From a virus, in IMG/VR virus record IMGVR_UViG_3300009506_000101, positions 1 to 56,965 of that record: a stretch of DNA of 56,965 nucleotides; one strand, written 5' to 3'. This document shows, piece by piece, positions 1,528 through 43,331 of this stretch (position 1 is its first letter; every line of letters starts with the position of its first letter). Made by a program: the position numbers and the translations under genes. The notes below the pieces were generated by a model. It made no database searches and was not told where the DNA came from. It saw only the letters and a program-made list of their open reading frames with translations.

Positions 1528-2222
1528 TGCACGAAGTCGCCGCCCTGTTCATCGACCCTCGAGGCCCGTACCCTGGTCTGCTCGGAGCTGACCACTGCTG
1601 GGATGAGACGCGGGACGCCAGGACGTACCCGGGTCCGTGGCCGGTCGTGGCTCACCCGCCATGCGCTCGCTGGTGCCGATTCGCCAAGTTCGTCGAGAGC
1701 CAGACCGACGGGCGCCTCGCCGTGGGTGACGACGGCGGTACGTTCGCTTCGGCGCTGGCCTCTGTCCGGAGGTGGGGCGGGGTATTGGAGCATCCAGCCT
1801 GGTCACTCGCCTGGGCCGCCAACGGTCTCATCGCCCCGCCGGCGCGCGGATGGCAGCGCGACATCGATGGCGGGTGGTGTTGCGAGGTGTCGCAGGCAAC
1901 CTATGGGCACCGCGCCAGGAAGCTTACGTGGCTGTACTACGTTGGGTCCGCGGCTCCGCCAGAGTTGGACTGGTCAAGGCCTGATCTCGGGGATGAGGAA
2001 CCGATGCAAGCGGCCGCTAACGGAGCGGCTCTGGAGCGCGAAGGATTGGAAGAACGCGAGCCGTCGAGAAACCTCGCGCAGTCCGGATGCCTTCGCCCGC
2101 CTGCTCATCGAGATCGCGAAGAAGGCGCGCTGAGAGCCTGGAGCGCCATCCGCCACAGCCTGACGCGGGCATGGGCCCACGGCCTCGGGTCAGCCTCCGA
2201 GCGCTGCCGCTGGAAGCCGTGA
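1527..2222 (+). CDS. Cytosine-methylase-like conserved phage protein, C-terminus frameshifted
   Basis: The N-terminal ~160 residues belong to a familiar phage family with WPVVAHPPCARW near residue 45 (a Pro-Cys loop like that of cytosine C5 methylases), GDDGGTFASALASVRRWGG near 70-90 and GVLEHPAWS. It lacks a clear AdoMet loop, so the function is unproven. The open frame runs to 2222, but the last stretch is atypical. The family-like C-terminus (SRSPDAFARLLIEIAKKAR) is in the +1 frame and stops at 2133. A net one-base shift lies between about 1980 and 2040, near a GGGG run at 1989-1992. The ATG at 1527 overlaps the upstream TGA. Confidence 0.7.
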   Translation: MHEVAALFIDPRGPYPGLLGADHCWDETRDARTYPGPWPVVAHPPCARWCRFAKFVESQTDGRLAVGDDGGTFASALASVRRWGGVLEHPAWSLAWAANGLIAPPARGWQRDIDGGWCCEVSQATYGHRARKLTWLYYVGSAAPPELDWSRPDLGDEEPMQAAANGAALEREGLEEREPSRNLAQSGCLRPPAHRDREEGALRAWSAIRHSLTRAWAHGLGSASERCRWKP

Positions 2223-2614
2223 GCGGGCCCGCCCTGGGTCATGCCGCGCCGCCACCCCCGGAGCACGAATCTGGCAGCCGAGAGCCTGCGGGCCGAGATG
2301 CTGGCGCTCTCGTCCCATGCGCCTCGAGCCCACCGGTGGACCTGCCACGCGCCCCAGGCGCGGCCGTTGTCGCACCTGGCCCCCTCTGGCCCCTCGTGGC
2401 AGCGGCCCTCCAGCACGTAGGCCGCCAGATGGGTCTCGTGGTAGGCCTGGGACGCCAGGAAGGCCAGCTCCCCCGGGACATCCGTGGCAGCGCACATGGC
2501 TTCGGCCACCGGCGTCAGCAACGCCGTCCGGGCTTCTGCGGACATGTCGCGGTCTTGGTACCAGGGGGCAAGGCTCAGCCAGAACCCCAGCACGGCTGCT
2601 ATGCATTCGGTCAT
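2105..2614 (-). CDS. Lysozyme / transglycosylase-like protein
   Basis: This 169-residue protein has a hydrophobic N-terminus (TECIAAVLGFWLSLAPW) that could be a signal or anchor. A lysozyme-like core follows: a conserved Glu in QAYHETHLA at residue 60 (predicted acid catalyst) and GRAWGAWQVH at about 84-93, which matches the GxWQ(I/V) substrate-cleft motif of lytic transglycosylases. It probably cuts peptidoglycan, either at entry or at lysis. The ATG at 2614 is preferred over a TTG at 2650 inside the terminator. It overlaps the converging + strand gene by its 3' end. A separate GH25 lysozyme at 5229 makes an entry or accessory role possible. Confidence 0.7.
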   Translation of the reverse strand: MTECIAAVLGFWLSLAPWYQDRDMSAEARTALLTPVAEAMCAATDVPGELAFLASQAYHETHLAAYVLEGRCHEGPEGARCDNGRAWGAWQVHRWARGAWDESASISARRLSAARFVLRGWRRGMTQGGPAHGFQRQRSEADPRPWAHARVRLWRMALQALSAPSSRSR

Positions 2615-2648
2615 GCGGCACAGGCTATCAGCCCAGGGCGCTGGACGC

Positions 2649-2681
2649 AAAAAAGGCCCCGCCGACCGAAGCCGACGGGGC
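2649..2681 (-). terminator. Rho-independent terminator of the leftward operon
   Basis: Read on the minus strand, an 11-bp GC-rich stem (2656-2666 with 2671-2681) closes a TTCG tetraloop and is followed by six T. Two of the pairs are G-U only on the minus strand, so the hairpin is oriented for leftward transcripts. It sits downstream of the tRNA-like gene and the 2791 gene and just before the lysozyme-like gene, and probably ends the late transcript. Confidence 0.85.
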
Positions 2682-2702: not shown

Positions 2703-2781
2703 GTCGCGAAACGGGAGTCGAACCCGATGTCTCCAGGTTATGAGTTATGAGCCTGGCGAGGAACCGTTTCTCTCTCGCGAC
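2703..2781 (-). tRNA. tRNA-Met(CAT)-like gene with duplicated anticodon loop
   Basis: On the minus strand a 7-bp acceptor stem (GTCGCGA at 2781-2775 with TCGCGAC at 2709-2703), a short D arm, a CCAGG/CCTGG anticodon stem (2756-2752 with 2737-2733) and a TTCGACT T loop are recognisable. The anticodon loop is 14 instead of 7 bases: CTCATAA occurs twice in tandem (2738-2744 and 2745-2751). Removing one copy restores a normal CAU loop. The T stem is imperfect, with one spare base before the acceptor, and no CCA is encoded. It could be a decayed tRNA, a processed intron-like insertion, or a decoy. It lies between the 2791 gene and the terminator. Confidence 0.6.
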
Positions 2782-2790
2782 ACGATGAGT

Positions 2791-3480
2791 CTACTTCTGG
2801 CCCGGCGCCTCGGAAAGTCCACGGCGGACCGCTGACACGAGGTCTGGATTTGCTGTCGGGATCCGGTCGATCCTCTGGTGGAGCTCGGCCACGTCCCGGG
2901 CCCGGCGTGTCTCCTCTGCGTCGATGCGCTCTGAGAACCGTTCCAGCGGTGCCAGAAGCGCCTCGACCCGCTTGGTGGCGGCCTGTGTGACCCGCTCCTC
3001 GGACCTGGCCTCTGCGGCAGCAGCCCCCGTCGTGAGCCACGTCTGGAGCAGCAGCCCGACCGCTCCGATGGTCGCGACGCCGAGCGCGCTGGTGGCCCCG
3101 ACGATCAGCCGGTCCCTGGTCGAGCGCCGGTCATCCGTGCGCTCGTGCTGCTCGAGACCGGCGACTGCCGCCATCTTGGCCGATTGCCCGCGCGCCCTGG
3201 CCTCACGCTGGACCAGCTCCTCGACCTCCTCGGCAGAGTACGTCCGGGTCCGGGACTCGTCAGCGTGGCGCTGAGCGTCCTTCTCGGCGCTGTAGGTCAG
3301 CGGCCCGAGCTTCAGAGCCGGCGGGAGGCTCGGGGGGCGTGTCTGCCGAGGCTCCCCGCCCTTACGCTCCCCGTGGTCCAGGTAGGTCCCGGGGATAGGC
3401 GTCTTGTCGCGGTCGAGGTGGTATTTCGGTGGCGTCGGGCGTGGAACGCGCGGGACCGGGGGAGGCTTGCGGCCGTTCAC
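2791..3480 (-). CDS. Single-span membrane protein with coiled coils
   Basis: The 229-residue product has a Pro-rich N-terminal third, a Glu/Arg-rich helical stretch (SAEEVEELVQREARARG), one transmembrane segment (LIVGATSALGVATIGAVGLL) and a C-terminal amphipathic helix (ERFSERIDAEETRRARDVAE). The layout is that of an inner-membrane protein with coiled coils on both sides, as seen in some holins, spanins or DUF1515-like phage proteins; I cannot choose. Start is the GTG at 3480, in a GTGA overlap with the upstream gene. It is the last protein gene before the tRNA-like element and terminator. Confidence 0.65.
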   Translation of the reverse strand: MNGRKPPPVPRVPRPTPPKYHLDRDKTPIPGTYLDHGERKGGEPRQTRPPSLPPALKLGPLTYSAEKDAQRHADESRTRTYSAEEVEELVQREARARGQSAKMAAVAGLEQHERTDDRRSTRDRLIVGATSALGVATIGAVGLLLQTWLTTGAAAAEARSEERVTQAATKRVEALLAPLERFSERIDAEETRRARDVAELHQRIDRIPTANPDLVSAVRRGLSEAPGQK

Positions 3481-3938
3481 GGGTCGGGCTCCTCGGGTTC
3501 CGGGTCTGCCGGCTCCGGCGCCCGACTCGGCTTGAAGCTCGGGCACCGCTCACAGTGAGCGCGGAGCGAAGCAAGGTCGGCCTCGATGGCGGCCATTCGA
3601 CGGTCGGTGTCGGCGTCCCGCATGGCCCGCTCCAGCACCGGCTGTAGGTGTCGCGTCAGGGCCTGCACGCGTTCGGCGCTCCGTTCCTCGAAGTCGGCCA
3701 GCTCCTGGAGGAAGGCGCCGCGGATGTCGGTGAACCTTCTGTCTAGCGACTCCTCGACGGACGCCAGCAGTGCAAGGTTGCTCTGTCCCTCGGTGAAGCT
3801 TGGCCCAGGCGGGACCGTCTCGCGGCTCTCGGGCTGATCCTCGCAGCCATCGGGCGGACCCGCGGGCTCGGTCGACGGGGTGCGGCCTGACCGCGGTGGG
3901 GGGGCTTCCGACTCGGGATGTTTGGCGTCCATGGGCAT
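3477..3938 (-). CDS. Hypothetical protein with central coiled coil
   Basis: The product is about 153 residues. An acidic, Pro-rich, probably disordered N-terminus (residues 1-55) is followed by a helical region (ASVEESLDRRFTDIRGAFLQ and onwards) and a Pro/Glu-rich tail ending PEPEEPDP. Cys in HCERCPSF may be structural. It is translationally coupled to the membrane protein downstream. No family recognised. The start could be the ATG at 3938, the ATG at 3932 or a GTG at 3971; none has a strong Shine-Dalgarno. Confidence 0.55.
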   Translation of the reverse strand: MPMDAKHPESEAPPPRSGRTPSTEPAGPPDGCEDQPESRETVPPGPSFTEGQSNLALLASVEESLDRRFTDIRGAFLQELADFEERSAERVQALTRHLQPVLERAMRDADTDRRMAAIEADLASLRAHCERCPSFKPSRAPEPADPEPEEPDP

Positions 3939-4058
3939 GAGCCTATTGCAACAGTGACAGGTTCGCCTCACCCCTGAGGCTAAATCGTGCTACAAAATGA
4001 AGCCCCCGCGGCGGCACTACTCGCCCGGGGGCCGGCCCACAACGGAAAGAGGTTCATC

Positions 4059-4658
4059 ATGGGCGCCAAGAGTCTGCCATTGTCCGACCGCGAGGTCGAA
4101 CGTTTCTGGTCAAATGTCGACAAGGAGGGTCCGGTTCATCCGCACCATCCCGAACTAGGGAAGTGCTGGCTCTGGACCGGGCGTATCGACAGATATGCCG
4201 TATTCGCGTTGCGCGGCCGCGATACCAGGGCCCACAGAGTCTCATTCCTGATCGCGAATGGGCACTTCCCAACGCCCTGTGGATGCCACAGCTGCGACCG
4301 CAAGAACTGCGTGAACCCGGATCATATCTGGGAAGGCAGCAATGCCGACAATCACGCCGACATGATGATGAAGGGGAGGCATCGTCATCACGAGGTAATA
4401 GCTCCGCGAGGACCGGCCATGTTGCTTCGTGCCTGGAGAAAATACATTGGCATGCAGCAAGGCGAGCTTGCGGGGTTCCTATCTGTGCATAGGACAGCCG
4501 TCTCTCACTACGAGCGCGGAACTGGTCGTCCGGAGCTGCGCGTCGCTCAGATGATTGAGGGACTCACAGCAATCCCAGCAGGCATGTGGAACGAGTATTA
4601 CGCACCTAACTCACACTACCGTTCCAAACGGTCGTCCCCTCGAACGACTGGCTTGTGA
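4059..4658 (+). CDS. HNH endonuclease fused to a C-terminal XRE-like HTH
   Basis: The 199-residue protein has an N-terminal HNH domain: CWLWTGRIDRYAVF, then AHRVSFLIANG, PTPCGCHSCDRKNCVNPDHIWEG (split here as CHSCDRKNCVNPDHIWEG) and NADNHADMMMKG, typical of phage homing HNH enzymes of the HNH_3 type. The C-terminal part (MQQGELAGFLSVHRTAVSHYERG) is a lambda-repressor-like helix-turn-helix in place of the usual AP2 or NUMOD DNA-binding part. It is the only + gene in a minus region, has a GAAAGAGG ribosome site 7 bases before the ATG, and its 3' end overlaps the converging 4606 gene. It is probably a free-standing homing endonuclease with target-binding HTH. Confidence 0.85.
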   Translation: MGAKSLPLSDREVERFWSNVDKEGPVHPHHPELGKCWLWTGRIDRYAVFALRGRDTRAHRVSFLIANGHFPTPCGCHSCDRKNCVNPDHIWEGSNADNHADMMMKGRHRHHEVIAPRGPAMLLRAWRKYIGMQQGELAGFLSVHRTAVSHYERGTGRPELRVAQMIEGLTAIPAGMWNEYYAPNSHYRSKRSSPRTTGL

Positions 4659-8416: not shown

Positions 8417-10714
8417 TCACTCCGGGTAGTACCTCGTGATCTGATCTACTGTGCCATCGTAGGCCCCGGCACCTGTCGGCACCGAAATCCACTCGATCGG
8501 CCCCCCGTACTCCAACTGCATCGCATCAGGTACCGGCACTGGCGCGGTATACACAGGTGTCAGAGTCACTGGGTATGGGTCCGACCAATCGTCGAGCGTC
8601 TCCACCTCGCACCGCATTGCCCAAAATCCACCGAGACCGCCCAACACCTCCTCGGTGCGAAAGATCAAGATGTAGGCACCACCGCGTTTGAAAATACGCG
8701 CGAACCCAGCGTGCACCGTGCCCTCGTCCTCATTTTGGCGCCACTCACTGACCCAGGATGTCACACAATGAGTTTGCCAACCGGTCGATGTCTTATGTGT
8801 CACATAAAACTGTGTCTTGCCGTCATTCTCTAAATCGCACATATATGCCGCAATCGGACGCCCGTCGTCAGCAACGCACGCCGAGCACGTGACGACCGAC
8901 ATACCTTGGTGCACCGGGACTGCCTGCGCCAGCTCTGCAGTGGCCTTGGTGATCGGCAGAGAGTACGAAGACCCGTCGCTCGTGTGCCACGTCACCCAGT
9001 CATCGCTATAGGCGTACAGCACATCGTGGCGTTCTCCGAGGGTTTCACCTTCAGTCGTGTCGTTGAGCATCCAGAAAGCATGTACACGTCCTGTGTCCGG
9101 GTCTCGCCACGGAGCGAACAGGTAGGCACTCGACGGCTGCTCGGAACCATCCGCCCCATAGTACCACGGACTGCTCGTGTGGATCCGCGAGAACTCACCA
9201 GAGGCAGCGTCCTGACGATACCAGTGCGTGTTTCCGTTACCACTCGCACCGTTGCGAAACACGATGTGCACGTCACCGTCGGGCTGGTGATACGCTTGCG
9301 CGTACGTGCACGAGGATTCGGGACCATCGACAACGATTGGCGTCGACAGGACATCCTCGGCATCTAGCTCGATATCTCCTACCGATGCCCCCTGCAGCCA
9401 CACGTGCGGCTCATTGTGCCCACCGATCGACAAATGCGGAATTCCTCCGCACGTCCATACGCACAGGTTGTTGTGTGCGTCGGTTGTATTCGCGACATCG
9501 GTGACGTGCGTCGTCCACGCCTCGGAGCCGAGTGCGCGCTTGCCGAGTGCGGCGTAGTATCCTGCGGTCTCGTACCACGCGGCGTATTGGACAGCGTTGC
9601 CCACATCGGTCCAAAGTGTCGTGGCAAACCCGCCCACTGACAGCGCGTTGCCAGTGTAGACATCCGCGCCGGTGATCGTCCTGGTGCGAGTAGATGTCCA
9701 CTTCACGAGCTGTCGCACACGCTCGCGCAGGTCGCCCTCGATGACAGACGGATCCAACGCATCGTGGATCACGCAAAACAGATAATAGTCGCTCTGGGCG
9801 AGTTCATCGTAGTCGTCGGTATTGGCTCCGAGCACGCACCGCGTCGCCTCCGGTATATCCGACAGCACAGCCGACGACCCCGTGCTGGTCGGACTCTGTT
9901 CTACCCAGTTACGCCACAGGCGCAGACGGCCGTAGTTCTGGGTGTCCGGATCGGCGTCGATGAAAGTGCCGTCGAACCGGAGCACGAGGACCTCTAGCGT
10001 CTCCTCGCCGCTCGCTGGATAGGGCGAATATTCCCAGGAGACGAATCGCGACGGGCCGACAGATGCGTAGATTCTGTGCGTCGAAATGACACGGTTTAAC
10101 CGAAAGTCGTCCGTGCCTGAATCTTGCGCGTACCAGACATTGGAGACATCGGCAGCCGCTTGCAGCGTACGCGCCACAACGATCATCGTGAGCTGTGAGA
10201 CTCCACTTGTCACTGCTGTGGGCACCTCAAGCGCAGCCTGTGTGTCGACGCTTTTGCGGCACGACACGGCGGAATCAATGCCGTGTGTCACTCGCTCTGG
10301 GCCATGTCCATCGACGCACGGGACGAGATGGCGCGCATTGCCGGAGACATCGGACCACTGCGTGACAACAGCATCGGACAGGTTCAAATGCGTGTCACCG
10401 TAGCGCCCGCCGACGCACAGAATAGCCGGGCCGTACTCCGCCACGAGTGAGGCAGCAGGATCCGCTACCGTCACTGCGAGCGGAGGGGGCACGTGGTAGC
10501 CTCCGGCTGTCATTGCCACGCGAGCGTAGACCTGTTGAGAACCAACGCGAGACAGCGGAACCTCGGTGGTAAACTGCCAGTCAACCTGTGCACCGAAAAC
10601 GCGCCCGAACCACGCGCCACCGGCAAGAGGGTCGCCCCAGTACAGATCCGTGCGCTCCGCGCCGGATGGCGACGTGCCGGTAATCGTGATCTCTGCGCCT
10701 CCTGTCGCCATCAT
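8417..10714 (-). CDS. Tailspike with BNR_4-like propeller domain
   Basis: The ~765-residue protein has an N-terminal Ig-like region, a lectin/LamG-like central part (residues about 90-330, VTQWSDVSGNARHLV and onwards), and a C-terminal half resembling BNR_4 beta-propellers (ANTTDAHNNLCVW, GGIPHLSIGGHNEPHVW, YHQPDGDVHIVF, DPDTGRVHAFW). BNR_4 folds occur in polysaccharide lyases and sialidase-like proteins, so it may degrade host surface glycan. GACGGAGTC before tandem ATGs at 10714/10711 supports this start rather than the GTG at 10750. It directly follows the fibre gene at 10722. Confidence 0.72.
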   Translation of the reverse strand: MMATGGAEITITGTSPSGAERTDLYWGDPLAGGAWFGRVFGAQVDWQFTTEVPLSRVGSQQVYARVAMTAGGYHVPPPLAVTVADPAASLVAEYGPAILCVGGRYGDTHLNLSDAVVTQWSDVSGNARHLVPCVDGHGPERVTHGIDSAVSCRKSVDTQAALEVPTAVTSGVSQLTMIVVARTLQAAADVSNVWYAQDSGTDDFRLNRVISTHRIYASVGPSRFVSWEYSPYPASGEETLEVLVLRFDGTFIDADPDTQNYGRLRLWRNWVEQSPTSTGSSAVLSDIPEATRCVLGANTDDYDELAQSDYYLFCVIHDALDPSVIEGDLRERVRQLVKWTSTRTRTITGADVYTGNALSVGGFATTLWTDVGNAVQYAAWYETAGYYAALGKRALGSEAWTTHVTDVANTTDAHNNLCVWTCGGIPHLSIGGHNEPHVWLQGASVGDIELDAEDVLSTPIVVDGPESSCTYAQAYHQPDGDVHIVFRNGASGNGNTHWYRQDAASGEFSRIHTSSPWYYGADGSEQPSSAYLFAPWRDPDTGRVHAFWMLNDTTEGETLGERHDVLYAYSDDWVTWHTSDGSSYSLPITKATAELAQAVPVHQGMSVVTCSACVADDGRPIAAYMCDLENDGKTQFYVTHKTSTGWQTHCVTSWVSEWRQNEDEGTVHAGFARIFKRGGAYILIFRTEEVLGGLGGFWAMRCEVETLDDWSDPYPVTLTPVYTAPVPVPDAMQLEYGGPIEWISVPTGAGAYDGTVDQITRYYPE

Positions 10715-10721
10715 GACTCCG

Positions 10722-12077
10722 TCATAAAGGGATAGAGGCAGCGCAACCACCTCGTGCAGCTGAGATATTTGCCAGCGTCAGAATGTTGGTCCAACATTGC
10801 GCTGTCATGCCTGTTATGCGGAGTTTTGCGCTGAGCTGCCAGTCGCCCGCGTAGGCGCCATCATATCTAGCCAGCAGCGAGTATCCACGTATGTTGAATG
10901 TACCTGGAGAACCTGCGAGCACGGTCCCAGCCGCGTGTGTCCCGTCGGTGAGGTAGTACTCGATCGCGCTTGACGCGCCGTTGAATGTGCTTCGCGTGAT
11001 CGACCCCAGCGCAGTGGATCCGCTGTGCGCGCTGTCCACCGTGGCTGTGCCAGCAAATAGCGCAAGTGGTCCACCGTTACCATCGTAAACCATCGTGCAA
11101 TTCGCCGCGCTGATGGCACCGCCAACCGACCGATAAAAATTCACGGAGGAACCGTGGACCCCAACGTCGATCTCAGTGAACGGCTGCGACGTCACGAGGG
11201 CTGATAGTGGCGTCGTCGATAGCAGGTATGCAGATGAATTCCCGATGATTCCTTTGCGACCTCCGAGCTTCGTGATTGCTCCAATTGGAGGGCCAGAGCC
11301 ACCACCGGGTATCAGCACATCGGCAGCTGTGCCTCCGGTCTGCGGAGTAGCGCTCGTGCACAGGCCGCCTGATTCCGTGTAGTACCCGGTGCGGTCAAAA
11401 TCGTAGTGCAGTACGAGCGTTGACGTGTCTGCAGCAGCAGTAACAGCCGCATCCCATCCTGTCCAGATAGGGGCGCTCTGGCTCGCGAGCGCTGCTCCTC
11501 CGATCGACTTGCGGCGCACATACAGCGTGGCGCGCTCCGGCGACGCGATACCATCGGACCATGCTGGCGTGACATTGCCGCTGCCCGTGCCGCTGCTGAC
11601 AGTGATCTCGCCATTGGTCGTCGCGAAATCGCTCTGCCAGCTGGTCTCGTAAACTCCGTCATATCCGGTCAGAGACACGCTAGTAGCCGTGTCCGTGATG
11701 AACGTCGTGCCGGGTGCAGGCGACGAGAACGCGACGCCTGGAACAACTGTACACGCCAACGTCGCGAGCGCAGCGCTTCCGCCGACGGGGCGGACGTACA
11801 GAATGGTTTCTCCCAGGTCCCCGGCAATTGCTGTCGCGTTTAGGGACCAGGCACCTCCGCCGGGAATGACGCCGCTGGTCCCGCAAATGACAGAAAAGTC
11901 TGAGCGGAATGAGGCCTCGATCGTGAGACCCACAAGTCCCGACGACGTCCCCGAGACCGCAGTCGCGACACCGACCAAGAATTCTGTTGCAGGCGCTGGA
12001 GACGTGATCTCAGCGGCCACCCGCCGACTCGAACCGCCTGAAAACTTCGGCATACCGATACCTATCCCGATCCGCAT
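10722..12077 (-). CDS. Tail fibre with Ig-like repeats
   Basis: The 451-residue product begins with a Gly/Ile-rich peptide (MRIGIGIGMPKFSGGSS) often found at the start of phage fibres that dock on a baseplate. Two Ig-like repeats follow (SPAPATEFLVGVATAVSG... and SPAPGTTFITDTATSVSLTG..., each with a LYVR strand), then a lectin-like C-terminal region beginning LVLHYDFDRTGYYTESGG. It probably anchors or partners the tailspike encoded next. Ser, Thr, Gly and Ala dominate, as usual for fibres. Confidence 0.65.
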   Translation of the reverse strand: MRIGIGIGMPKFSGGSSRRVAAEITSPAPATEFLVGVATAVSGTSSGLVGLTIEASFRSDFSVICGTSGVIPGGGAWSLNATAIAGDLGETILYVRPVGGSAALATLACTVVPGVAFSSPAPGTTFITDTATSVSLTGYDGVYETSWQSDFATTNGEITVSSGTGSGNVTPAWSDGIASPERATLYVRRKSIGGAALASQSAPIWTGWDAAVTAAADTSTLVLHYDFDRTGYYTESGGLCTSATPQTGGTAADVLIPGGGSGPPIGAITKLGGRKGIIGNSSAYLLSTTPLSALVTSQPFTEIDVGVHGSSVNFYRSVGGAISAANCTMVYDGNGGPLALFAGTATVDSAHSGSTALGSITRSTFNGASSAIEYYLTDGTHAAGTVLAGSPGTFNIRGYSLLARYDGAYAGDWQLSAKLRITGMTAQCWTNILTLANISAARGGCAASIPL

Positions 12078-32980: not shown

Positions 32981-33459
32981 CAGAAGTCACCGAAGCCGTT
33001 CTCGGTGTAGCTATCGGGCTGGTAGTCCTCGTCCGCTAGCCCATAGCCATTCACGACGTAGTCCCCGCCATGGTTGGCACCAGGCTCTGGGGCTCCGTCG
33101 ACATCGAGCCGGGTGTCGCCCTTCCGCAACGACAGCAGCTCACGCTCCGTCGCCTGCCAGAGCGGCAGCCACTCCCGGGACGCTGCCTTTGGGAAGCGCC
33201 GGCACAGCATCGCCTCCGCGATGTCTAGGCAGAGTCGCGTTGCCTCGTGGGGCGGTGTCGTGATCCGGAGAGTCGAGAGCGGGTAGATGCCACGGACGTA
33301 GCTCTCGAAATGCGACTCCGCGTCCTGGATGAGCTGCGTTACGGGATTTGTGTCGGGCGTGCCGTTGTTGTCGTCGTCCATTACGCGCGCTAGCTTCGCG
33401 GCCGACACGCGATCGCTCAGCATGGCTTGCGTGATGTAGTACGGCGACGTCTCGGACAT
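32980..33459 (-). CDS. gp36-like head-tail connector (DUF1320 type)
   Basis: The 159-residue protein begins YYITQAMLSDRVSAAKLARV, followed by DAESHFESYVRGIYPLSTLR and LCLDIAEAMLCRRFP, the hallmark of Mu gp36 (DUF1320) connectors. The C-terminal 40 residues are Gly/Asp/Tyr-rich. It docks under the portal. Stop and next start overlap by one base (32980). Confidence 0.8.
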   Translation of the reverse strand: MSETSPYYITQAMLSDRVSAAKLARVMDDDNNGTPDTNPVTQLIQDAESHFESYVRGIYPLSTLRITTPPHEATRLCLDIAEAMLCRRFPKAASREWLPLWQATERELLSLRKGDTRLDVDGAPEPGANHGGDYVVNGYGLADEDYQPDSYTENGFGDF

Positions 33460-33462
33460 GGC

Positions 33463-33651
33463 CTAGAGCCTGCGCAGGTTGCCCGGCTGAATGCGGTTGA
33501 GCCGCTTTGCAATCTCGGCCGGCAACTCCACCTTCGCGCCTTTGCGGTAGAGCTTGCCGGCATGTACGAAGCTCGCATCCCCCACGACCTCATAGGTTGC
33601 GGGCTTGGAAGTGTCGGTCTGCTGTTGTTGCGGATTCGGATTGTTCGCCAT
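33463..33651 (-). CDS. Small DUF7210-like virion-region protein
   Basis: A 62-residue protein: a Gln/Asn-rich N-terminus, then a compact beta domain (SFVHAGKLYRKGAKVELPAE) and EIAKRLNRIQPG. The same layout occurs in small phage proteins next to capsid genes that read V.vGk.y..Ge.v.lP...A..L...G. Function unknown. ATG at 33651; another start at 33660 is possible. Confidence 0.6.
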   Translation of the reverse strand: MANNPNPQQQQTDTSKPATYEVVGDASFVHAGKLYRKGAKVELPAEIAKRLNRIQPGNLRRL

Positions 33652-41349: not shown

Positions 41350-41782
41350 CTCGCTCACCGGCAAGTGCCGCAAGGATTTGGGTTGCCAGCTCTGGACCAG
41401 CGACCGCTGTGACAGCATCCAGGATCCTTTCGAGTTCAGACTCGACCGTGACGTTCACCTGGGCCTTGTATCCGAACCGCTCGGACGCGATGTGCTCCAG
41501 GATCCAGGCGAGCGCCCTCCAGTCCTTGTTGCCGTGCTGCCTGATCTTCGCCAGCATGAGGGCCTGCGCCTCGGCCTGCGCCTGCTCGACCTTGTCCGAG
41601 AAGCCGATGAACTGGCGGTTCCCTTCCTTCGCCTTCGTAAGCCAGATGCGGAGCGTTCGGGACGCGATCCCGACGGCGTAGCAGGCCAGCTCTTTCGGCA
41701 CGCCGGCCTGCAGCAGCTTGAGCAGCCTGGCTTCGACGTCCTTCGTCAGCTTGGGGCGACGCCCCGGACCTCGTCCTGCCAT
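41267..41782 (-). CDS. terS: Small terminase subunit
   Basis: The 171-residue protein has an N-terminal HTH (PKLTKDVEARLLKLLQAGVP, KELACYAVGIASRTLRIWL) for DNA recognition, a central oligomerisation helix region (KVEQAQAEAQALMLAKIRQH; WILEHIASERFGYKA) and a Pro/Ala-rich tail. It overlaps the large terminase by about 80 bases, which is long. The ATG at 41782 shares its A with the stop of the methylase gene (TGATG). Confidence 0.8.
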   Translation of the reverse strand: MAGRGPGRRPKLTKDVEARLLKLLQAGVPKELACYAVGIASRTLRIWLTKAKEGNRQFIGFSDKVEQAQAEAQALMLAKIRQHGNKDWRALAWILEHIASERFGYKAQVNVTVESELERILDAVTAVAGPELATQILAALAGERDGAQAVGHDALPAGTAGAAGPTAGRPN

Positions 41783-42813
41783 CAGGCTGCCTTTTGGGAT
41801 ATGCGTTCAGCATTGCCGCCGGTCGCCTTCTCCCAGCGGGCAATGATGCCGGAGCAGTACTTCGGAGACATCTCGATCATCCAGCACCGCAGACCAAGCT
41901 GCTCACACGCAATGAGCGTCGAGCCGGATCCTCCATGCGGATCGAGAACCAGGTCCCCTGCCTTCGTGGAGTTGCTCAGCTGCTCACCGATCAGTGGCGG
42001 CGGTTTCATGGTTGGATGGTCTTTGCTCGCCGATGGCCTCGGGAATTCAAAGACCGTGTCCTGCTTTCGATCCGGTGGTCTTTTGTGAGACTCTCCCGGA
42101 CTCCATCCGTAGAACACGAATTCATGTCGGTAATGGTAGTCGGACCTACCCATCACCCAGCGATCCTTCACCCAAACCAAAACCTGGCGGAGCACTCCGA
42201 TGCGCATCAACTCGGAGCCGAATGTCATACACTGCGGGCCCGGCGGGCCCGCAACGTACCAGACAGCTCCATGCTCCGTATGCTCGATCAGCAGCGCGAA
42301 GACGGAGCGCAGGAAGAGCCGGAGCTTTTCGTCGTCCTGCTGGTCGTTGTCGATCTTCAATGAGTCGGCAGTTTTCCCGACATATTCGACACCATATGGC
42401 GGATCCGTCCAAACCGCCTGTGCCTTCTCGGTCGGCCAGGCCCACGGCTCGCGATTGTCGGCGCAGACCAGCGTGTGACGCCCGAGCTTCCAGACGTCGC
42501 CGCGTTGGCAGATGAGTTCCGGATTCTCCGGAGGTCCGCCGTCGTCCTGAACGTCTCCAGACGCCGGCTCGCCGGAGGACTTCGTCAGCTCCTCGAGATC
42601 CGCCACGTCCCATCCGGCCAACTCCGCGTCGGCCAGAGAGACCTCTTTCAGCAGTTCCCAGAGCTCCGCATCGTCCCAGTCCGCCGCCTCTCCCAACCGG
42701 TTGTCCGCGAGCGCCAGCAGGTGGGCCTGCTCCTCGGTGACGTCGAGGAACCGGACAGGTACCAGCCCATCGGTCGCGATCTGGATGGCGCCCTGGTTCC
42801 ACCGAACCTCATC
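41782..42813 (-). CDS. DNA methyltransferase part of a ParB-methylase fusion
   Basis: This frame supplies the end of the ParB-like region (FLDVTEEQAHLLALADNRLG) and a beta-class methylase: AVWTDPPYGVEYVG (DPPY catalytic motif), KDHPTMKPPPLIGEQL, and LDPHGGSGSTLIACEQLGL (AdoMet site; His replaces the usual Phe of DPFGGSG). It should methylate adenine N6 or cytosine N4. The N-terminal half of the protein is in another frame (42648-43331); a single missing base near 42813-42818 joins them. Such fusions often sit beside terminase genes and may protect phage DNA. Confidence 0.82.
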   Translation of the reverse strand, partial: DEVRWNQGAIQIATDGLVPVRFLDVTEEQAHLLALADNRLGEAADWDDAELWELLKEVSLADAELAGWDVADLEELTKSSGEPASGDVQDDGGPPENPELICQRGDVWKLGRHTLVCADNREPWAWPTEKAQAVWTDPPYGVEYVGKTADSLKIDNDQQDDEKLRLFLRSVFALLIEHTEHGAVWYVAGPPGPQCMTFGSELMRIGVLRQVLVWVKDRWVMGRSDYHYRHEFVFYGWSPGESHKRPPDRKQDTVFEFPRPSASKDHPTMKPPPLIGEQLSNSTKAGDLVLDPHGGSGSTLIACEQLGLRCWMIEMSPKYCSGIIARWEKATGGNAERISQKAA

Positions 42814-43331
42814 GGCTGCTCCTCGGTCGCGTCCCGCCACTCGGCCATCAGGAGCGCGACGGCCTTGAGCCTGGTGTGGCCCGCGATGAGCTCGCGGTCC
42901 GATTGCCTGGCCACCATCGGGGCCCCGAAGCCGAACCGCTTGATCGAAGCCGAGACCTTGACCGCCGCTTCGTCGTTTCGCCTCGGGTTGCGCCTCCAAG
43001 GCCTCAGACTGTCGGCCTTGACCCACTCGGCAGCAGCCTGTCCGGCCCGAGCAGCGTTCGGATCTTTCGGTGCAGCAGGCTTGGAAGCCGCTTGGCCCGC
43101 TGGCCTTTCACTATTCCGCCTACTGGCCGGCTTGGACGCTTTGGTCGTTGGCCTACTGGTCGACTGTCTCGCGACTGACACGCTCGTCACCCAGGTGTCT
43201 GACACCACGACCGATAGCCCATTGCTGGCTACTGGCGGCCTCGTGGTGAGCTCGTCTACCGGCAGGCATCGAGCTAGCCACGAGGTCACGCCCGGGCCAC
43301 TTGGCGGCGGCGAGGGGGGATGCGCCGCCAT
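42648..43331 (-). CDS. ParB/Srx-like N-terminal part of the ParB-methylase (frameshifted)
   Basis: From an ATG at 43331 a Ser/Pro/Ala-rich, poorly ordered 100 residues precede the ParB nuclease-like domain: VKADSLRPWRRNPRRNDEAA, SIKRFGFGAPMVARQSDREL and IAGHTRLKAVALLMAEW, with the GHTR motif. After EEQP (about 42815) this frame becomes non-homologous and ends at 42648, while the natural continuation (DEVRWNQGAIQIATDGLVPV) is in the frame of the methylase. So the annotated end is an artefact of the shift. Confidence 0.7.
   Translation of the reverse strand: MAAHPPSPPPSGPGVTSWLARCLPVDELTTRPPVASNGLSVVVSDTWVTSVSVARQSTSRPTTKASKPASRRNSERPAGQAASKPAAPKDPNAARAGQAAAEWVKADSLRPWRRNPRRNDEAAVKVSASIKRFGFGAPMVARQSDRELIAGHTRLKAVALLMAEWRDATEEQPMRFGGTRAPSRSRPMGWYLSGSSTSPRSRPTCWRSRTTGWERRRTGTMRSSGNC

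Follow-up and report, generated by a model that had tools for sequence, protein, structure and literature searches.

A tRNA-Met(CAU)-like gene of a metagenomic virus with an exact tandem copy of its anticodon loop

Introduction

The closest described counterparts of the gene reported here are phage elongator tRNA-Met(CAU) genes such as those of Mycobacterium phage Cosmo, Streptomyces phages Patelgo and Stella, Gordonia phage GodonK and Clavibacter phage CN1A. These genes carry the segment CAGG-CTCATAA-CCTG-AGA, nearly identical to that of our gene, and the same T loop (TTCGACT). The tRNA-Met genes of the comparator phages have a single 7-nt anticodon loop and mostly keep U8, whereas our gene has a doubled loop and lacks U8. 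In CN1A a terminator is located just downstream of the tRNA-Met gene, as is also the case here.

In tRNA genes that serve as attachment sites, the anticodon loop, usually 7 bp, corresponds to the 7-bp overlap of tyrosine integrases, and the palindromic stem around it to their core sites (PMC8371274). Among mapped tRNA islands, about half are at the anticodon-loop subsite (PMC4383910). Our gene resembles such sites in that its duplicated 7-bp unit has the length of the usual overlap and is flanked by a palindromic stem. Phages with tRNA-dependent lysogeny carry a complete tRNA of a kind that is also used as attB, as does the virus described here; the attB sites listed for them include tRNA-Ile2-CAT and tRNA-Met-CAT (PMC10865867). 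Those phage tRNAs must decode in order to replace the broken host gene, whereas decoding by ours is doubtful and no integrase was found in the window. Changes in the anticodon loops of phage tRNAs have also been proposed as a means of evading host anticodon nucleases (PMC10264068). Our gene shares with those tRNAs an unusual anticodon loop, although theirs differ from the host by cleavage-site mutations, whereas ours is normal in sequence but doubled.

Results

The window analysed here is the whole of IMGVR_UViG_3300009506_000101, a linear, metagenomic virus record of 56,965 bases. It encodes a myovirus gene set (portal, major head protein, sheath, baseplate wedge, terminase, DnaB-like helicase, primase and GH25 endolysin), and its late genes are on the minus strand, directed towards the left end of the record. 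Along that strand the last late ORF is followed by the tRNA-like gene and then by an intrinsic terminator (Table 1). The last late ORF had no matches in Pfam, PHROGs or PADLOC. The N-terminal part of the ORF beyond the terminator appears, by eye, to be lysozyme- or transglycosylase-like.

Table 1. Positions in the window of the tRNA-like gene, its parts and the adjoining features
Feature	Positions	Strand	Basis and remarks
tRNA-Met(CAU)-like gene, 79 nt	2703..2781	minus	G and C pair at the two outermost ends; RF00005, ARAGORN with intron, alignment
Anticodon stem 5' arm, CCAGG	2752..2756	minus	Sequence; pair probability 0.99-1.0
Loop copy 1, CTCATAA	2745..2751	minus	Sequence
Loop copy 2, CTCATAA	2738..2744	minus	Sequence; exact tandem
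Anticodon stem 3' arm, CCTGG	2733..2737	minus	Sequence; pair probability 0.99-1.0
T arm, CGGG-TTCGACT-CCCG	2712..2726	minus	Four pairs only; outer pair would be T-T
Last late-operon ORF	2791..3546	minus	Ends 10 bases upstream of the tRNA; ORF list
Intrinsic terminator	2656..2681	minus	11-bp stem, 4-nt loop, then C + TTTTTT; strong
ORF downstream of terminator	2105..2650	minus	Homologue in relative G001 at 33031-33495, 45% over 156 aa

Direct reading of the minus strand gives the anticodon arm as CCAGG-CTCATAA-CTCATAA-CCTGG, an exact tandem copy that forms a 14-nt loop between stem arms paired at all five positions, just as an earlier note made from the letters alone had described. Within the loop CAU occurs intact twice, both times in the usual CU-CAU-AA context, and the loop is twice the 7 nt expected of a functional elongator tRNA-Met. 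Where the repeat begins and ends is uncertain by one base: a C follows copy 2 as well, and exact 7-mer tandems start at both 2737 and 2738. Exact 7-bp tandem repeats have 12 start positions in the 57 kb of the window, compared with about 5.6 in shuffles. At roughly twice the shuffled rate the repeat is by itself unremarkable, and what is remarkable is its exact fit to the loop of the cloverleaf.

The earlier note's assignment of the gene to a CAU tRNA is supported; the gene has an 8-bp terminal stem, an anticodon stem and a T arm, and its anticodon arm and T loop match the phage tRNA-Met consensus. As paired from the sequence, the acceptor stem is complete (8/8), as is the anticodon stem, while the T stem forms four of five pairs and the D stem is weak (two or three pairs). 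An unconstrained minimum free energy fold kept the acceptor and anticodon stems and lost the D and T arms; the z score of unconstrained folding, -1.53, gave no useful signal. The conserved core is not intact, in that U8 is absent and position 8 is a G or an A according to the register. The acceptor/T stack has a 1-nt register problem, and CCA is not encoded.

The Rfam model RF00005 matched the gene at 24.9 bits (E 1.7e-4 in the window), below its gathering cut-off of 29 bits; tRNA identity thus has statistical support, though weak. Part of the deficit stems from the 7-nt insertion, so the degree of decay in the remaining tRNA is uncertain. ARAGORN, proposed earlier as a check, called no tRNA at the locus under default settings and tRNA-Met(cat), at 95% of the threshold, once a 7-nt intron was allowed. 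Two alternative identities were rejected. tRNA-Sec, the best match within the Rfam clan, scored 26.6 bits against a cut-off of 47, and the gene has no long variable arm and a CAU loop. An intron, self-splicing or protein-spliced, is contradicted by the length of the insert, which at 7 nt is too short for group I, and the relaxed ARAGORN call does no more than score that insert.

For comparison, nine tRNA-Met genes of other phages were aligned and scored with RF00005, and gave 34.8-69.5 bits against the 24.9 bits of the window gene. Two parts of the window gene, GCCAGGCTCATAA...CCTG.AGA and the T loop, agree with the phage elongator tRNA-Met consensus. The highest score belongs to phage CN1A (at about 50.1 kb in KF669650), where a clear tRNA-Met at 44-120 of locus L040 (69.5 bits) is followed by an annotated terminator; the record itself annotates no tRNA there. 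In Salmonella phage PVP-SE1 a tRNA-Met is annotated at 24-105 of locus L044, and ARAGORN reports tRNA-Ala(ggc) at the same coordinates by means of another register.

Searches for a second example covered viral contigs and cellular genomes. The exact 18-mer spanning the duplication was found in no other viral contig among 2.9 million, and a looser CAU pattern (CTCATRAYTCATRA plus T arm) gave five viral matches in that collection, none of which was a complete tRNA. A corresponding pattern (CTCATNACTCATNA plus T arm) matched 17 times in 84,980 species genomes, with no full anticodon stem and no ARAGORN call among the 17. Wider scans were limited to loops of the CTNNNAA type. At the 80 or more readable viral loci where such a loop was repeated before a T arm, none of the matches listed was an exact duplicate with an intact stem (the only exact copy listed had one of five stem pairs), and the 12 matches in 794 whole genomes of two phyla (396 + 398) likewise included no exact duplicate.

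Close relatives were sought with the neighbouring genes (2791-3546 and 8417-10750), which gave no match, and with the capsid, which gave short contigs only. The only relative covering the lysis region is G001, a 72-kb contig whose endolysin is 72% identical, and no tRNA was found in the parts of it that were searched. The comparison with related phage genomes suggested by the earlier note could thus be made at this one relative, where there is no tRNA whose loop could be scored as normal or doubled, and consequently nothing shows conservation or selection of the gene. The window gene stands alone in these searches, and there is no indication that it is conserved. The view that an exact duplicate must be recent or selected gained no support either: an exact 7-bp repeat tells little of how old it is, and nothing pointed to selection.

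Discussion

The doubled loop is a real, odd and single feature, and it most likely marks a disrupted tRNA gene. With confidence only a little better than even, we read it as a phage elongator tRNA-Met gene whose loop was duplicated in tandem (7 bp) and which is probably non-decoding. The gene is probably transcribed together with the late operon, at its 3' end, with transcription ending at the downstream terminator. The duplication, whose unit is exactly the 7-base anticodon loop, would then have disrupted it, and slipped replication at the hairpin-forming stem-loop is a likely origin. The microhomology available for slippage would be a single base, the C that both begins the unit and follows it, and one base suffices. 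Because of the 14-nt loop and the missing U8, such a gene would most likely be unable to read codons and may be drifting or in the course of being lost.

The low RF00005 score, the replaced U8, the short D stem, the four-pair T stem, the absence of CCA and the lack of a second stem-intact duplicate all support disruption. Several observations count against it. No pair is missing from the five of the anticodon stem or from the 8-bp terminal stem, so that any decay must be young; phage tRNAs frequently depart from the consensus and yet work, and one of the comparators (L036) itself scores only 34.8 bits. Slippage in particular gives no special reason for the unit to match the loop to within one base. 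Among the readings offered by the earlier note, an inactivated copy is the best fit (the loop has 14 nt, the body departs from the consensus, and neither conservation nor a second example was found), whereas positive evidence was found neither for an expanded decoding loop nor for an anticodon-nuclease substrate or decoy. Taken as one disrupted tRNA gene, the case is of little importance.

The fit of unit to loop has another possible source, one we regard as unlikely though worth setting out at length. The duplicated 7 bp equal, to within one base, the 7-bp overlap cut by tyrosine integrases, and could therefore be the footprint of such an enzyme: a staggered break at the phage's tRNA gene that was filled in and rejoined, with inactivation of the tRNA. 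The route, for which we would give at most about one chance in five, would begin with cuts in both strands where the anticodon loop meets its stem; filling and joining of the 7-nt 5' overhangs, in place of recombination, would then yield exactly the observed order of stem, loop, loop and stem. The enzyme might have been this phage's own or that of another element targeting the phage tRNA gene.

The relative G001 does encode a tyrosine integrase, located between its lysis/tail block and its homologue of the ORF downstream of our terminator, and the corresponding interval of the window, past the last late genes, holds the tRNA and the terminator only. (That homologue is near the G001 integrase rather than beside the G001 lysin.) In the window itself, however, neither a tyrosine (PF00589) nor a serine (PF00239) recombinase was detected, whereas an integrating element would be expected to carry an integrase gene, although the record is linear and perhaps incomplete. 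A 7-bp overlap with inverted core sites is present (CCAGG-CTCATAA...CCTGG); every tRNA has a loop and an inverted stem, so this match is weak evidence. Also against an integrase origin, the 84,980 genomes yielded no complete scarred CAU tRNA, though host tRNA-Met genes serve as integration targets, and we know of no report of such integrase scars in tRNA genes. If an integrase did leave this mark, it would be evidence for mutation of tRNA genes by abortive site-specific recombination, and would provide a sequence signature that can be searched for in tRNA genes generally.

Known attachment sites offer a partial likeness. At L007/L008/L011/L029 and L030, element-side copies of CTCATRA precede half tRNA-Met sites, with an integrase gene beside L007, L029 and L030; these are 3' half-tRNAs without a 5' arm, whereas the window tRNA is complete and has no detected integrase. 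Tandem overlaps recurring among the tRNA-Met attachment sites (L007/8/11/29, L010, L020, L021 and L023/28/30) were considered and set aside, because by a rough estimate the number of overlap-bearing sites is near chance expectation, and they are not used as evidence. One of these sites, L020, adjoins an IS110 transposase, and L021 has no integrase among the ORFs tested. At many of the loci L045-L124, attachment-type half-tRNAs carry the recurring pair CTAGGAA-CTTCTAA before the 3' half of a tRNA-Arg, and a diverged copy of the loop motif is present on the element side.

A further explanation, improbable in our judgement and somewhat more so than the integrase route, is that the RNA is kept without decoding. 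Folded and processed by RNase P, it might serve as the 3' end of the late transcript, or it might act as a decoy, either for an anticodon nuclease or for a host factor that binds tRNAs, and the loop would then be free to change. The location of the gene, with the last late ORF on one side and a strong terminator on the other, and its intact outer and anticodon stems are consistent with this idea, as is the proposed role of altered phage anticodon loops in nuclease evasion (PMC10264068). Against it, the only relative that covers the region lacks the tRNA, a PADLOC search of 10 window ORFs returned weak helix-turn-helix matches and nothing else, and both loop copies are normal in sequence, unlike the loop expected of a nuclease-resistant tRNA. 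A decoy, nuclease-resistant or recoding function of the window tRNA is thus unsupported. Should the RNA prove to be stable and to benefit the phage, this would be a case of a phage tRNA retained for a non-decoding purpose.

It is very unlikely that the second copy is an assembly or consensus artefact and that the loop is present only once in the virus. In favour of this, the record comes from an IMG/VR-type collection of virus contigs, but ordinary short reads span a 14-bp non-homopolymer repeat many times over, and the body of the tRNA is off consensus independently of the repeat. Least probable of all, to the point of being nearly dismissed, is a functional tRNA that decodes with a 14-nt loop, or with two CAU anticodons that overlap, in recoding or frameshifting: both CAU triplets are intact and normally set, but U8 is missing, the collections searched held no second example, and the working anticodon loops known to us, natural and engineered, have 7-8 nt and rarely 9-10.

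Additional observations

Two ORFs on the plus strand are candidates for homing-type nucleases, and the tRNA is flanked by them. The ORF at 3987-4658, about 1.2 kb from the tRNA, combines an HNH endonuclease part (PHROG E 2e-16) with a C-terminal helix-turn-helix (Pfam HTH_3). The ORF at 1087-1527 has a GIY-YIG-like start (YALIDPRTGLIRYVGMS), with a sub-threshold Pfam match (13.3 bits, E 0.11). On the minus strand, the ORF at 41782-43026, which adjoins the terminase gene, contains ParB-like and DNA-methyltransferase domains within one protein.
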